Shown here: one piece after another, positions 2,757 to 33,523 of the stretch
How the letters are laid out: each line of letters opens with the position of its first letter
How positions within the stretch are numbered: the first letter of the stretch is position 1
From: Burkholderia sp. lig30
GTDB taxonomy: Bacteria > Pseudomonadota > Gammaproteobacteria > Burkholderiales > Burkholderiaceae
Reading direction: 5' to 3'
Length of the DNA stretch: 64,000 bases
NCBI RefSeq assembly: GCF_000687455.2
Contig: NZ_JGVW01000057.1
Location: 1 to 64,000, forward strand
Notes under the pieces: generated by a model
Database searches by the model: none
Told to the model about the DNA's origin: nothing
What the model saw: the letters and a program-made list of their open reading frames with translations, nothing else
Translations under genes and position numbers: made by a program

Positions 2757-5700
2757 ATGAAGAAGTTCCAATTCCTGTCGTTTCTGGCCTCGCGCCAGTT
2801 CCTCGCGTTCCTCGCGCTGATTGTCGTCGCACTCGTGATCTGGTTCGTCGGGCCGTTCTTTGCGTTCGGCGGGCTCAAGCCGCTCGCCGGAACCGGCATG
2901 CGCGTGCTGCTGATCGCGCTGTTGCTCGCCGGGGTGCTGCTCTGGCTCGTGGGCCGCTCGATGAGCATTGTGTTCGTCGCGTTGCTGTGCCTGCTGATCT
3001 GGTACGTGGCGCCGCTGCTTTCGTTCGGCCGTACGGCGCCGTTCGAGCCGGCATCGGTCCGACTCGCCGCGATCGCGCTGGTGGTGGCCGTCTTCGTCGT
3101 CTTCCAGATGTTCCGTCTGTGGCAGAAAATGCGCGCAGACGACGCGTTCCTGAGGAAGATGCTGCGCATGGATCGCCGGAAGGACGATTCTCCTGCCGCG
3201 CCGCGTTTGCGGAACGTCGAAAAGATCGTGACGAGCGCGATCGGGCGCCTGAAATCGATGCGTACCGGCGCGCGGGGGCTTGGCAAGCTGTTCCAGGGCA
3301 AGCGCTACTTGTACGAACTGCCCTGGTACATCACGCTCGGCTCGCAAGGCTCCGGCAAGACCAGCGTATTGATGAACGGTGGACTGGCGTTTCCCGTTGC
3401 CGAACAGATGCAGCGCGCAGCCGGGGCGCTCGCCGATGATGCCGCCGCAGTGGACTGGTGGTTGACCAATGACGCCGTGTTGATCGACACGAGCGGCTAT
3501 TACACGCGGCACGGCACCTCGACAGACACGGACATCGATGTACCGATTGCTGAATCGGGCAAGCCGGCAGCCGGCACGCCGGGCAAGAATGCCGACGACG
3601 CCCAGCCGAATGCGAAAGGCGCCGAAGACGGTGTGGAGCAGGATGGGGCGTCGAAATCGAAGGCGGCCGCCGCATCGAAATCGAGCGACCATGTCGTTCC
3701 GCCCGGCCCGGATGCGGGCGAGCGCCGGCAGGAGGTCGATCGTGCAGAATGGCTCGGATTTCTTGGCATGCTGCGCCGGCATCGGCCCCGCGCGCCGATC
3801 AACGGCGCATTGCTGGCGGTCGATCTTGCCACGCTCGCAGGCGTTGACGAGCAGGCACGCGTCGCCGAGGCCGCCGCATTGCGCGCGCGGCTGGCCGAGC
3901 TGAGACAGGAACTGGGCATCCGCTTCCCCGTCTATGTGCTGGTCACGAAGATGGATGGCCTGACGGGCTTTGCCGAGCATTTCGGGGCACTCACGGCCGA
4001 AGGGCGGGCGCAGACATGGGGCTTCACGCTTCCATACGGCAAGGAAACGGTCGCGAAGGAAGGGCTGCGCGCGCGTTGTCACACGGAGCTCGACCGGCTT
4101 GCCGGACGGCTCGCCGGTTCGCTTAATTCGCATTTGCAGGACGAGCACGATCCGGACAAGCGCCGATCGCTTGCCGCGTTGCCCGAGGAGTTTTCCGCGC
4201 TGCACGGACCGCTGCTCGACCTGATGGATCGGGTGTTTCTCGATTCGCGCTTCGACGATACCCAGCTCCATTCGACGTTGCGCGGCGTGTACTTCACGAG
4301 CGCGCGGCAACAGGGCAGCGAGATCGTTGCGGAGCGCGCTACGATCGTTCGGCGCCTTGTGTCGAATCAGGAGCATCCCCCCGTTTCGCCGGCACGCGCC
4401 GACGGAAATCGGGGTTTCTTCCTGCACGACCTCCTGACCCGTGTCGTGTTCCCGGAAGCGCATCTGGTGAGTCCCAACCTGCGCTGGGAATATCGCTACC
4501 GGCTGCTGCGCCTGATCGGCCACACGCTGGCCCTGCTGCTGTTCGTGTGGCTGGCGATCGGCCTGCGCGCGAGCTTCGGCAACAACAGCGACTATCTCGA
4601 CATGATCGGCCGCAAGGTGCAAGCGCTGGCGGCCCGCGTCACCCAGCTGTACAAGGCGCCAAAACCGGAAGCCGTGCCGGACACGCTGACCGAAGCGCGC
4701 CATCTGCCGACCTTCCCGGGACTCGACCTGTCCGCCCCGAGCTGCACGTGGCGTTACGGACTCTATACGCCGCCGAGCATTGAAGCCGACAGCCGCCGTG
4801 CCTACGATGCGCTCGAGGACAACCTGCTGTTGCCGCAGATCGTGCGCCGGATGGAGGACGTCATGTCCGGGGCGATCGCCGGCAACGACCCGAAGGCCGC
4901 CTACGACGCGTTGCGCGTGTACCTGATGCTGCATGACAACGCGAAGTTCAACGCGGACGACGTCAAGGCATGGGTGCTCGACGACTGGGCGAAGACCGAT
5001 AGCGCGGCGGTCTTCGGCGGACGCGCGTCGATGATCGACCACGTGCAGCAGCTCTTCTCCGGCGCGCGCGTGGTGCAGTCGCCGCTGATCCGCAACGACG
5101 CGCTGGTGCAGCAGGCGCGCGCGTTTCTCGACGGCAGCAACGCTACCGACCGCCTTTACCAGCGCGCGAAGGCCGCCATGCTCAAGGAAGGCCCCGACGA
5201 GTTTACGCTGCTGCGTGCGGTCGGCCCGCAGGCCGGCACGGTGTTCACGCGCGCGAGCGGCGCGCCGTTGTCGCGCGGCGTGGCGGGGCTTTTTACGCTC
5301 GATGGCTACCGGAACCTGTTCGACAAGCGATTGCCCGAATTCATGCAGATCGCGCGCAACGATGACGCGTGGGTAATGGGGCGCTCATATCCAGGCGAGG
5401 CTCAAAAAAAAACGGCTGAAATCGTGAGCAACGCGGCCGGCATGGACGATGCGCTGACGGACGCCGTGCGCCGCGAATACCTGATGGAATATGCGCAGCA
5501 GTGGGACGCGTTTCTCAACGACATCCGGACCGTGAGCGGCACGAGCCTCGCGTTCAATCTGCGGGTGCTGCGCAGCTTCGCGGCGCCCGATTCGCCGCTC
5601 GCGCGTCTTGCCCGCGCAGCCATGCACGAAACGACGCTCACGCAGCCGATTGCGTCCGCGGACGGTTCGCTTCTGCAGAAGGCCGCTGACCAGCTCAATC

Positions 5701-30624: not shown

Positions 30625-33036
30625 ATGGCAAAGACGACAGGCGGAGAGAATGCAACGGGCAACGGCTCGACGGAGCCGACCACCACGGTCACAGCGGCCA
30701 AGTCTGCTTCTTCCGCAAGGACAGAGTCTTCCGCCGTAACAGTTGCTGCAAGAAAAAAAACCGCGGCCGGCACTGCTCAGGCTGCGCCGGCGCAGGCAGC
30801 CAGGGCTGCCGTCATGCCCGAACCCGGGCCGGCGAAGCCGGCGGCGAGGCGGGCGAGTGCGAAAAGCGCAAGGGACGCGGCTGCCGCGGCGGACGAAACG
30901 GCAGTACGTACAACTCATGCACCCACGGTTCAACCGGCTGTCGTCCAGCAGCCGCGAGTCGATATAGCCGGTACGGCGAACTCCATGACGAAAAAGCTGA
31001 ACGAAGTATCCGTCGATGACGACGCAAACCAGAGCGGCGAGCAGCCTGCCGCTGCCGCTGCTGCTGCCCCTGGTAAATCCAAGGTGCGCGATCGCCGCGC
31101 CAAGGAAAAGGCGCTGCTGAAGGAAGCGTTCGCGACGAGCACGCCCGGCACGGCCGAGGAGCTCGAAGAGCGCCGCGTGAAGCTGCGTGCGCTGATCAAG
31201 CTCGGCAAGGAGCGCGGCTTCCTCACGTATGCCGAAATCAACGACCACCTGCCGGACAACTTCACCGAGACCGAGGCGCTCGAGGGGATCATCGGCACGT
31301 TCAACGACATGGGCGTGGCGGTTTACGAGCAGGCGCCGGACGCGGAAACGCTGCTCCTGAACGACAACGCGCCGGCGGCTTCGTCGGACGACGAGGTCGA
31401 GGAAGAGGCCGAAGTCGCGCTGTCGACGGTCGACTCGGAATTCGGCCGCACGACCGATCCGGTGCGGATGTACATGCGCGAGATGGGCACGGTCGAGCTG
31501 CTCACGCGTGAAGGCGAAATCGAGATCGCGAAGCGGATCGAAGACGGCCTGCGCCACATGGTGATGGCGATTTCGGCATGCCCGACGACGATCGCCGACA
31601 TCCTCGCGATGGCCGAGCGCGTCGCGAACGAGGAGAGCCGTGTCGACGAGCTCGTCGACGGCCTGAACGATCCGAACGCGCAGGACACCGACACCGACGG
31701 CTTCTCCGCGAAGGAAGCGGAAGCGATCGAGAACGAGGACGAAGAAGCCGAGGAAGAGGAAGAAGAGGAACAGGAAGAAGACGACGGCGCGGCGCAGGCA
31801 ACGGCCAACGCCGCGCAGCTCGAGGCGCTCAAGCGTGCGTCGCTCGAGAAGTTCGCGCTCATCGGCGAGTGGTTCGAGAAGATGCGCCGCTCGTTCGAGA
31901 AGGAGGGCTACAAGTCGAAGTCCTACCTGAAGGCGCAGGAAACGATCCAGAACGAGCTGATGACGATCCGCTTCACGGCCCGCACCGTCGAGCGTCTGTG
32001 CGACACGCTGCGCGCGCAGGTGGACGAAGTGCGCCAGGTCGAGCGTCAGATTCTGCACATCGTCGTCGACAAGTGCGGCATGCCGCGCTCGGAATTCATC
32101 GCGCGCTTCCCGGGCAGCGAGACGGATCTCGAATGGACCGCGAAGATCGCGGCCGAAGGCCATTCGTACAGCGCGGTGCTGTCGCGCAACATCCCGGCGA
32201 TCCACGAACAGCAGCAGCGTCTGCTGGATCTGCAGGCGCGCGTCGTGCTGCCGCTGAAGGACCTGAAGGAAACCAACCGCCAGATGGCGGCGGGCGAACT
32301 GAAGGCGCGCCAGGCGAAGCGTGAAATGACCGAGGCGAACCTGCGTCTCGTGATCTCGATCGCGAAGAAGTACACGAACCGCGGCCTGCAGTTCCTGGAC
32401 CTGATCCAGGAAGGCAACATCGGCCTGATGAAGGCGGTGGACAAGTTCGAATACCGTCGCGGCTACAAGTTCTCGACGTACGCGACGTGGTGGATCCGTC
32501 AGGCCATCACGCGTTCGATCGCGGACCAGGCGCGCACGATCCGGATTCCGGTTCACATGATCGAGACGATCAACAAGATGAACCGCATCTCGCGGCAGAT
32601 CCTGCAGGAAACCGGTCTCGAGCCGGATCCGGCGACGCTTGCCGAGAAGATGGAGATGCCGGAAGACAAGATCCGCAAGATCATGAAGATCGCGAAGGAG
32701 CCGATCTCGATGGAAACGCCGATCGGTGACGACGACGATTCCCATCTCGGCGATTTCATCGAGGACAACAACACGGTCGCGCCGGCCGATGCCGCGTTGC
32801 ACGCGAGCATGCGCGACGTCGTGAAGGACGTGCTCGATTCGCTGACGCCGCGCGAGGCGAAGGTGCTGCGGATGCGTTTCGGTATCGAGATGAGCACCGA
32901 TCACACGCTCGAGGAAGTCGGCAAGCAGTTCGACGTCACGCGTGAGCGGATCCGTCAGATCGAGGCGAAGGCGCTGCGCAAGCTGCGTCACCCGAGCCGT
33001 TCCGACAAGCTGAAGTCGTTCCTCGAAGGGAACTGA
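30625..33036 (+). CDS. rpoD: RNA polymerase primary sigma factor RpoD (sigma-70)
   Basis: The 803-residue protein is much longer than E. coli RpoD (613). Residues 1-120 are a low-complexity Ala/Lys/Thr-rich extension, after which [13 protein letters not shown] begins the more usual sequence; this could be a second start. Then come region 1.1, region 1.2 ([20 protein letters not shown]), and a non-conserved region with an acidic tract of about 20 Glu/Asp. Region 2 ([34 protein letters not shown]), region 3, and region 4 with its helix-turn-helix ([20 protein letters not shown]) follow. It directs most transcription. A run of eight adenines lies in the extension near 30753. A terminator follows. 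Confidence 0.97.
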
Positions 33037-33059
33037 TTTCCGGCGAATTCCGTCGGGCC

Positions 33060-33093
33060 GCCACCGGTGTCTTCATGATGCCGGTGGCGTTTC
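33060..33093 (+). terminator. Terminator after rpoD
   Basis: An 8-bp stem GCCACCGG/CCGGTGGC with a 13-base loop is followed by GTTTCTC, about 25 bases past the rpoD stop. The T-run is imperfect. Confidence 0.7.
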
Positions 33094-33196
33094 TCTCCAG
33101 TGTTGTTACAATGCCGGCCCGGCGTGTCATGTCGGACGGCATGTCATGTATCCGTGCATCGGATAGGGCCGGATGCAGTAGAATGATCGGTTTTCA

Positions 33197-33523
33197 GGGC
33201 CTCTAGCTCATGCCTGGTTAGAGCAGCGGACTTAGCAAGTGTCGTCCTGTAGCTCGCAAGAGTATGGACTGCACGGAATGGGTTGCCTTGGAGCAAGTTC
33301 GCTCTGCTCCTTGGTAGAACTGCTCAAATTCGGGGAAACCTCTGCTGCCGTGGCAGCGTGGCAATCCCGAGCGAAGCTCTCTTTGAGAGAACGTGTAGAG
33401 ACTGTACGGGCAGGTCGTAAAGACAAGAGACAGTCCAGACCACAAACCCGAAAGGGGTGGCGAAAGCCATAGCTGGTAAGCATAATCCGTTGGTGCCGGG
33501 TTCGACTCCCGGGGGGCCCACCA
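33197..33523 (+). tRNA. tRNA-Ile(CAU), split by an intron in the anticodon loop
   Basis: Joining 33197-33232 to 33481-33523 gives a complete tRNA. The acceptor stem is GGGCCTC/GGGGCCC with discriminator A and encoded CCA. D stem is GCTC/GAGC with a GG-containing loop, anticodon stem GCGGA/TCCGT, loop CTCATAA, a 5-base variable loop, and T stem CCGGG/CCCGG with loop TTCGACT. The anticodon is CAU. The initiator is excluded by a paired 1:72 and no GGG/CCC anticodon stem. The anticodon stem and TTGGT variable region resemble the minor isoleucine tRNA (lysidine-modified, reads AUA) rather than elongator methionine. All three anticodon bases lie in the 3' exon. Confidence 0.88.
33233..33480 (+). 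ncRNA. Group I intron (tRNA type, IC3-like), about 248 nt
   Basis: The insert has the core of a self-splicing group I intron. A J3/4-P4 segment AAATTCGGGGAAACC is nearly that of the Azoarcus tRNA-Ile intron. P3 is CTGCTC/GGGCAG, P5 contains GCTGC-CGTG-GCAGC, P7 is GACTGT/ACAGTC around the guanosine site, and P8 is GTC/GAC between the P3 and P7 strands. P9 contains CCC-GAAA-GGG, and the intron ends in G. There is no open frame for a homing endonuclease, so it is a minimal ribozyme. The 5' boundary after U33 is set by the need to rebuild the anticodon loop; P1 pairing there (GGAC with GTCC) leaves the splice-site U without its usual G partner, so the exact junction needs RNA evidence. Confidence 0.87.

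Follow-up and report, generated by a model that had tools for sequence, protein, structure and literature searches.

How can a tRNA gene that is broken inside its anticodon loop serve the cell, and how might such a break have arisen? The question is raised by positions 33197-33523 of a 64,000-nt stretch of Burkholderia sp. lig30 DNA (hereafter the window), where ARAGORN, run on the native sequence with introns allowed, reports a tRNA-Ile(CAU) gene in which GGACT and CATAA are separated by an intron of 248 nt. Run in its default mode, without introns, the same program reports zero tRNAs across the window. The gene and its neighbour are laid out as follows.

30625-33036, + strand: rpoD, neighbour of the tRNA-Ile(CAU) gene, likewise in intronless sisters (open reading frame)
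33197-33232, + strand: 5' exon of tRNA-Ile(CAU), to U33, ending ..GCGGACU (ARAGORN with introns; contiguous with the 3' exon in intronless relatives)
33233-33480, + strand: group I intron, 248 nt, final nucleotide G (RF00028 match; ARAGORN with introns)
33481-33523, + strand: 3' exon, starting with the anticodon CAU and ending CCA (ARAGORN with introns)

A tRNA-Ile(CAU) gene split between U33 and C34

The exons adjoin at query positions 43 and 292 in intronless relatives, which thus represent empty sites. Because the intron has a U directly after U33 and a G directly before C34, no alternative junction rebuilds the sequence of these relatives. The original prediction had placed the break between U33 and C34, with the anticodon entirely in the 3' exon, and both the ARAGORN junction and the abutting exons of the relatives bear this out. 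At the 3' splice site of related introns, a G precedes CATAAT[CT]C in all 119 occurrences found after the core, although no G was demanded in the search; the motif was not found at four locus ends, nor after an extra core at locus L135.

The Rfam covariance check gave a mixed outcome. RF00028 matches 33262-33460 with 29 bits (E 1.7e-5 in 551 bases), but this lies under the gathering score of 50, an outcome named beforehand as counting against the intron, and no Rfam match reaches gathering threshold in the window. The gathering score is a curation cut-off rather than a structural feature, and the covariation described below outweighs it. Taken with the ARAGORN gene and the RF00028 match, this covariation confirms the proposed insert of about 248 bases: 33197-33523 holds a gene for tRNA-Ile(CAU) that a group I intron of 248 nt interrupts between U33 and C34. 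The intron probably splices itself out.

Structure and covariation of the intron

A single core-motif scan of public genomes yielded 110 public loci. From these, 13 further loci and the window we cut 113 introns, demanding GGACT before and G-CATAAT[CT]C after the intron; 11 loci were incomplete, the extra core at L135 was omitted, and a few records are duplicated. The alignment set consists of 63 introns of 225-285 nt that are less than 93% alike (3 of the 113 lie outside this length range). It supports the following elements.

33229-33232, + strand: P1 exon strand GACU (positions 30-33), unchanged in 63/63
33233-33277, + strand: P1 extension, 45 nt, with helix 33239-33247 x 33266-33274; 7/8 pairs compensated, 82% of cells paired
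33278-33280, + strand: P10 strand AUG, pairing with CAU 33481-33483 of the 3' exon (alignment of 63)
33281-33284, + strand: P1 internal guide strand GGUU, with U33·G at the splice site, unchanged in 63/63
33286-33314, + strand: P2 hairpin with bulged C and UUNR loop; main helix 6/8 pairs compensated, loop motif in 99 of 112 evaluated
33320-33325, + strand: P3 5' strand, pairing with 3' strand 33408-33413; 100% of cells paired
33330-33370, + strand: P4-P5 region (P4 33330-33335 x 33365-33370; alignment of 63)
33372-33393, + strand: P6/P6a (alignment of 63)
33400-33405, + strand: P7 5' strand, pairing with 3' strand 33430-33435, guanosine site (alignment of 63)
33414-33424, + strand: P8, 3 bp; its loop is GUAAA here and GAAA in other members; U-A/C-G in 19/63
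33439-33477, + strand: P9.0 (33439-33442 x 33474-33477) around P9 33447-33456 and P9.1 33458-33469 (alignment of 63)

Of the 4306 cells that the named structure covers in the 63 introns, 95.5% are paired; shuffles reach 81.7% and slid-partner controls 32.4-42.5%. Both sides are changed in 37 of the 69 pairs, and 0 of 500 shuffles score as high; the structure was drawn from the window sequence and a reading of the alignment, which favours the cells-paired figure and the compensations less so. A P3 pair (G-C/U-A/A-U) is altered on both sides in 36/63 introns and a P7 pair (G-C/C-G) in 19/63, the outermost P7 pair being missing in 21/63. The P3-P7-P8 pseudoknotted core and P4-P6 are thus present, and the P3, P7, P8 and P4 elements that had been read from the letters all find support from covariation in the aligned relatives.

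P1 is where the original prediction erred. It had called this helix non-canonical at the splice site; GACU pairs with GGUU, with U33·G at the splice site, in 63/63. This canonical P1 had been overlooked because the 45-nt extension hid the guide. As both strands are invariant, P1 is supported by invariance only. An earlier candidate, exon GCGGACU against intronic GGACUGC, was rejected: the alignment puts that stretch in the conserved hairpin of the P1 extension, and the guide is GGUU. The sequence GGGTTG occurs in 112 of the 113 introns. The sole exception, L083, resembles in its 5' part the introns that lie between positions 36 and 37 (see below) and in its 3' part those between 33 and 34; it looks like a chimera, whether by recombination or by misassembly. 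In P10, C34-G is found in 63/63 aligned introns, A35-U in 51/63 and U36-A or -G in 43/63.

CCUGUAG (33246-33252) and UAUGG (33263-33267) of the P1 extension resemble an 11-nt GAAA-tetraloop receptor. In the family, CCUAA[AG] is present in 71 and NA[UC]GG in 105 of the 112 introns evaluated, and GAAA loops are found at L9 and L9.1 across the 63 aligned introns. One of these two loops may dock in the receptor-like motif.

RNAalifold favours a competing pairing, possible in 63/63, of exon GGACU (33228-33232) with AGUCC on the 3' side of P7 (33432-33436), a possible misfold or switch. It is the one observation that could be quoted for inefficient, host-protein-dependent splicing by which the intron would slow the reading of AUA codons. 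Nothing specific favours that explanation, and the full core and conserved loops all through the aligned set speak against it; we consider it improbable.

Search for other AUA-reading tRNAs

The draft genome (5.5 Mb, 139 contigs, completeness 100) gave a single match to the tRNA-Ile(CAU) gene as query. A pattern for tRNAs with anticodon CAU hit 20 places including the gene itself, and ARAGORN accepts five others as tRNAs, which we take to be four identical initiator tRNAs (tRNA-fMet) and one elongator tRNA-Met. Gene query, CAU pattern and ARAGORN thus found no second tRNA-Ile(CAU) in the draft genome, and the corresponding pattern for anticodon UAU gave 3 places and 0 tRNAs, hence no tRNA-Ile(UAU). 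The suggestion that this is the only AUA-reading tRNA is upheld within the draft genome. Since no other was found, AUA decoding probably depends on the gene at 33197-33523, and hence on the ribozyme.

Distribution and kinship of the intron

We surveyed 399 Burkholderiales genomes, evenly drawn from a larger number, with a core model trained on introns of the window's type (33/34). The model matches in 62 of the 399. The 33/34 type is present in 19 genomes (18 matches of at least 184 bits, and G246 at 152.7), and at all of the loci L178-L196, the window's among them, the reading is GGACT before the intron, a final G, and CATAATCC after it (19/19). A second type, between U36 and A37 (36/37), was found in at least 11 of the 399 genomes, a minimum given that the model had been built from 33/34 introns; the 36/37 genes read GGACTCAT before the intron, a final G, and AATCC after it (11/11). 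The remaining matches lie in tRNA-Leu, -Ser, -Arg and other genes, or could not be resolved. For several of the intron genes ARAGORN gives the labels tRNA-Leu, -Ser, -Val, -Pro or -Gln, which were discarded since the exons read as tRNA-Ile(CAU).

In a tree of 152 core columns the 33/34 introns form one clade (support 86, or 80 without long branches), adjoined by L169, the intron of another tRNA (support 87). This clade falls near introns of the tRNA-Leu(UAA) type, which have a similar core but lie in another tRNA and at another site, between U34 and A35. The 36/37 introns form a separate clade with support 100 without long branches. An AU test did not reject a tree in which the two Ile clades were forced together (p = 0.2).

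The original prediction had named the Azoarcus tRNA-Ile(CAU) intron as the known relative. The intron of Azoarcus BH72 lies between U36 and A37. It shares with the window intron the tRNA gene, a similar catalytic core and a small size, and to this extent the relationship stands; but its site is three nucleotides further on, the two types fall in separate clades, and the AU test permits, at p = 0.2, that these are sisters. The 33/34 introns also differ from that of BH72 in a P8 of 3 bp, a mostly UUNR L2 and the receptor-like motif in the P1 extension. That the window intron is simply of the Azoarcus type with a misread boundary has next to no probability, and is already refuted as to site: the same tRNA and the permitted sister clades would suit it, but the 36/37 genes read GGACTCAT and AATCC around the intron in 11/11 whereas the window and 18 loci read GGACT and CATAATCC, and the clades are separate (support 100 for 36/37 and 80 for 33/34). 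The window intron resembles the Azoarcus and Anabaena introns and is a candidate for subgroup IC3.

Several further introns were noted. Elsewhere in the lig30 genome, a tRNA-Leu(UAA) gene holds another group I intron, of 259 nt, between U34 and A35 (L002, G000:C130:17722-17952, minus strand). Two genomes of about 0.46 Mb (G077 and G097) keep a 36/37 intron in tRNA-Ile(CAU) despite extreme reduction (L165, L166), the gene lying downstream of an apparent rpoD end. By ARAGORN, and not all exon-checked, group I introns are also found in tRNA-Ser (L203, L205, L222), tRNA-Leu(CAA) (L220, L229, L232), tRNA-Arg(CCU) (L204, L206, L207, L246), tRNA-Asn (L235, L238) and tRNA-Thr (L239, L240). L109 and L208 are truncated copies, with the 3' part of the intron and the 3' exon following unrelated sequence, and L135 has, near 3950, a second core-motif match with no tRNA-Ile 3' exon after it.

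The window locus

The gene adjoins rpoD, as had been stated, and rpoD is also near the intronless sister gene. Over 31714-33123, rpoD and the stretch downstream of it are 93.5% identical to an intronless sister; therefore the gene sits at its ancestral locus. No remnant of an integrative element was seen at the window: there is no 5' half of a tRNA-Ile within 800 bases upstream of the core, and the single genome match to the gene leaves no displaced 3' half. In a plasmid search, none of 20 records covered 80% of the query.

The pair 30:40 of the anticodon stem is A-U (GAACTCATAATTC) in 9 of 9 intronless loci of the same genus (L023-L028, L030, L031, L033), unlike in the window gene; adding an intron to the sister's gene would therefore not by itself yield the window gene. 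From this difference it is plausible that the entire gene was replaced, and the window copy may have arrived by way of an element of the kind found in relatives.

Integrative elements in relatives

Upstream of the intron gene, 23 of the 110 public loci carry the 5' half of a different tRNA-Ile that has no intron; it reads ..GGACTCATAA and diverges from there on. Of these halves, 22 were found by a strict motif, at 173-269 bp exon to exon, and one (L107) is mutated. The other 87 loci are without a split half; of the 110, 7 have less than 450 nt upstream. L013 has two split halves.

We looked for tRNA-Ile 3' parts in 14 genomes, all picked for a 5' half at the locus. Such a part was found in 29 places: 14 are the intron-bearing genes, 14 are displaced 3' halves after CT, and the last is a degenerate intronless copy in G512. 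The 3'-part pattern revealed no intact intronless tRNA-Ile copy in these 14 genomes. The two element junctions have only CTCATAA in common, the anticodon loop that the intron splits.

Both halves and the intron gene are on one contig in six cases (L071, G161, G510, G511, G517, G519). The 5' half pairs in its acceptor stem at 7 positions with the far 3' half against 4 with the intron gene in L071, 7 against 6 in G517, and 7 against 6 and 5 in G161; where the halves are on separate contigs, the figures are 7 against 6 in G516 and 7 against 5 in G521 (by eye), and in G376 (two contigs) the far half has the advantage in Watson-Crick pairs alone (7 against 6). Acceptor stems are uninformative for copy assignment in G510, G511, G515 and G519. 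Wherever the stems discriminate between the copies, then, the far 3' half is the full match (7/7) of the 5' half and the intron gene a poorer one, which means that a single resident gene was divided by the insertion as a whole. The element thus brings a replacement tRNA-Ile gene, perhaps one shielded from re-insertion.

The spans vary widely: about 3 kb in G517 (ScaI-type restriction-modification), 3.6 kb in L071, 6.5 kb in G510 (ABC-3C type genes), about 26 kb in G519, with an integrase adjoining the right end, and about 35 kb in G161, where a protein with a SAM-like integrase domain adjoins the intron gene and has homologues at other loci. No integrase was recognised in L071, L281 or L282. 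A home-made tyrosine-recombinase motif gave zero matches, and a family search then found integrases. The protein starting MPVKND downstream of L236 had been suspected as an element integrase and is not one. Among the cargo of L281, L282 and L286 are an ABC-3C type module, a pair of ScaI-type restriction-modification genes and large genes resembling type I restriction-modification (the last by eye). In the left segment, a tandem repeat of at least 8 nt, mostly with 11-nt spacing, is present in 25 of 31 cases, a set that also includes 36/37 and intronless replacements, against 3% in shuffles, as expected for integrase arm sites. G511 (C1:881851-914535) and G515 (C6) contain several displaced tRNA-Ile 3' halves; together with L013, these rows of halves suggest serial insertions at one site.

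Intron enrichment in replacement genes

The 399 genomes were also searched for split 5' halves regardless of introns, with two patterns that are blind to halves followed by TCC. True 5' halves were found in 10 genomes; three further matches are 36/37 introns starting with A. The replacement gene can be read in eight of the ten: G161 and G376 with a 33/34 intron, G505, G075 and G424 with a 36/37 intron, and G480, G463 and G387 without an intron. The remaining two are G402, at a contig end, and G393, where an integrase-like open frame adjoins the half.

Two explanations may be weighed for the intron in these genes. In one, selection favoured it for interrupting the integrase core CTCATAA (CT^CATAA in the 33/34 type, CTCAT^AA in the 36/37 type), so that the replacement tRNA is no target while the sole AUA-reading tRNA stays functional. 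In the other, it has no role for the element and spreads with a horizontally carried replacement tRNA gene. We regard the first as a tentative explanation, somewhat short of an even chance, and give the second the same standing.

That two intron types split one 7-nt core, and that both are found in element-borne copies, speaks for selection. So does the enrichment: an intron is present in 5 of the 8 resolved replacements against 25 of the 389 other genomes (one-sided Fisher p = 8e-5, uncorrected for kinship; p = 3e-4, likewise uncorrected, taking 5/10 instead), where two of the 25 comparison genomes, G246 and G303, have halves of the kind that the patterns miss and the count of 36/37 introns is only a lower bound. 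A changed anticodon-stem pair is seen in two of the three intronless replacements, L302 (G387) and L293 (G463), and the changed stem GAACTCATAATTC in 9/9 of the same-genus intronless loci checked. But the third replacement, L292 in G480, is intronless with an unchanged stem, and the intron is therefore not required; moreover, 87 of the 110 intron loci have no split half (7 of the 110 with less than 450 nt upstream).

For spread without a role speaks the length of the introns, 225-285 nt in 110 of 113 and thus too short to accommodate a homing endonuclease, with the elements as the vehicle. This leaves the enrichment of two different introns in element-borne copies unexplained. The enrichment itself fits a protective role and also fits carriage along with the gene. 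It may be, though we put it somewhat below an even chance, that two distinct group I introns were recruited as splitters of CTCATAA by elements that destroy the only AUA-reading tRNA, give the host a shielded copy, and so enforce dependence and block re-insertion.

Discussion

We propose the following route. In the precursor, exon GACU would pair with the guide GGUU to form P1; an exogenous guanosine bound in P7 would attack after U33; P10 (AUG x CAU) would align the 3' exon, and ligation would follow after the terminal G. The predicted product is an intact CU-CAUAA anticodon loop, a substrate on which TilS could form lysidine, and AUA decoding would thus depend on the ribozyme. As to origin, intron-bearing tRNA-Ile genes of this family may travel on integrative elements whose target is the 7-nt core CTCATAA of tRNA-Ile(CAU); insertion there would split the resident gene and supply a complete one in its stead. 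At its ancestral place beside rpoD, the window copy would be a resident or domesticated descendant. We are confident, short of certainty, of the reading as a whole: the sole tRNA-Ile2 gene found, carrying a U33/C34 group I ribozyme, with this splicing route and a family origin linked to elements.

The tRNAscan-SE 2.0 paper (PMC8450103) reports that tRNA-Ile2 genes of Acidovorax and Burkholderia contain group I introns, very probably of the same kind as the window intron; in its accessible text that account is without site, structure, distribution or a link to elements. The paper adds that such genes escape tRNAscan-SE (PMC8450103). In the literature searched, which most subscription papers lie outside, we found no published account of the 33/34 site or of group I introns on elements. 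The site and the element link are thus new within that literature, while Burkholderia tRNA-Ile2 group I introns are already published.

Elements at tRNA genes have precedents, described here from the accessible parts of the papers. Islander tDNA islands have an anticodon-loop crossover, split tDNA fragments at the island ends and tandem arrays (PMC4383910). The relatives' elements likewise have the anticodon-loop crossover, a tDNA split between their ends and tandem arrays, but in Islander attP restores the gene from a fragment (PMC4383910), whereas here neither half is repaired and the element carries a complete tRNA gene. In a tRNA-Thr of Caldiarchaeum, described in 2012, a 5' fragment lies upstream of a copy with one extra intron, which was proposed to protect the integrated element (PMC3293823); that case concerns archaeal introns at one locus, ours bacterial group I introns at two sites in many genera. 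Tycheposons, cargo elements with a tyrosine recombinase at tRNA genes of aquatic bacteria, are alike in carrying cargo at tRNA genes but differ in tRNA and arrangement (PMC10872708), and the word 'intron' is absent from the main text of that paper.

Intron-split tRNA genes are missed by tRNA finders, by ARAGORN in its default mode here and by tRNAscan-SE according to PMC8450103. If the proposed reading is true, the decoding of one sense codon depends on one ribozyme. The comparative data make integrative elements a plausible vehicle for endonuclease-free tRNA introns, and the splitting of the attachment core a plausible reason for their persistence; both vehicle and reason are testable. If the vehicle is as proposed, it would explain the spread of bacterial tRNA introns that have no endonucleases, and if the introns do protect the replacement gene from re-insertion, self-splicing introns would be immunity devices of mobile elements.
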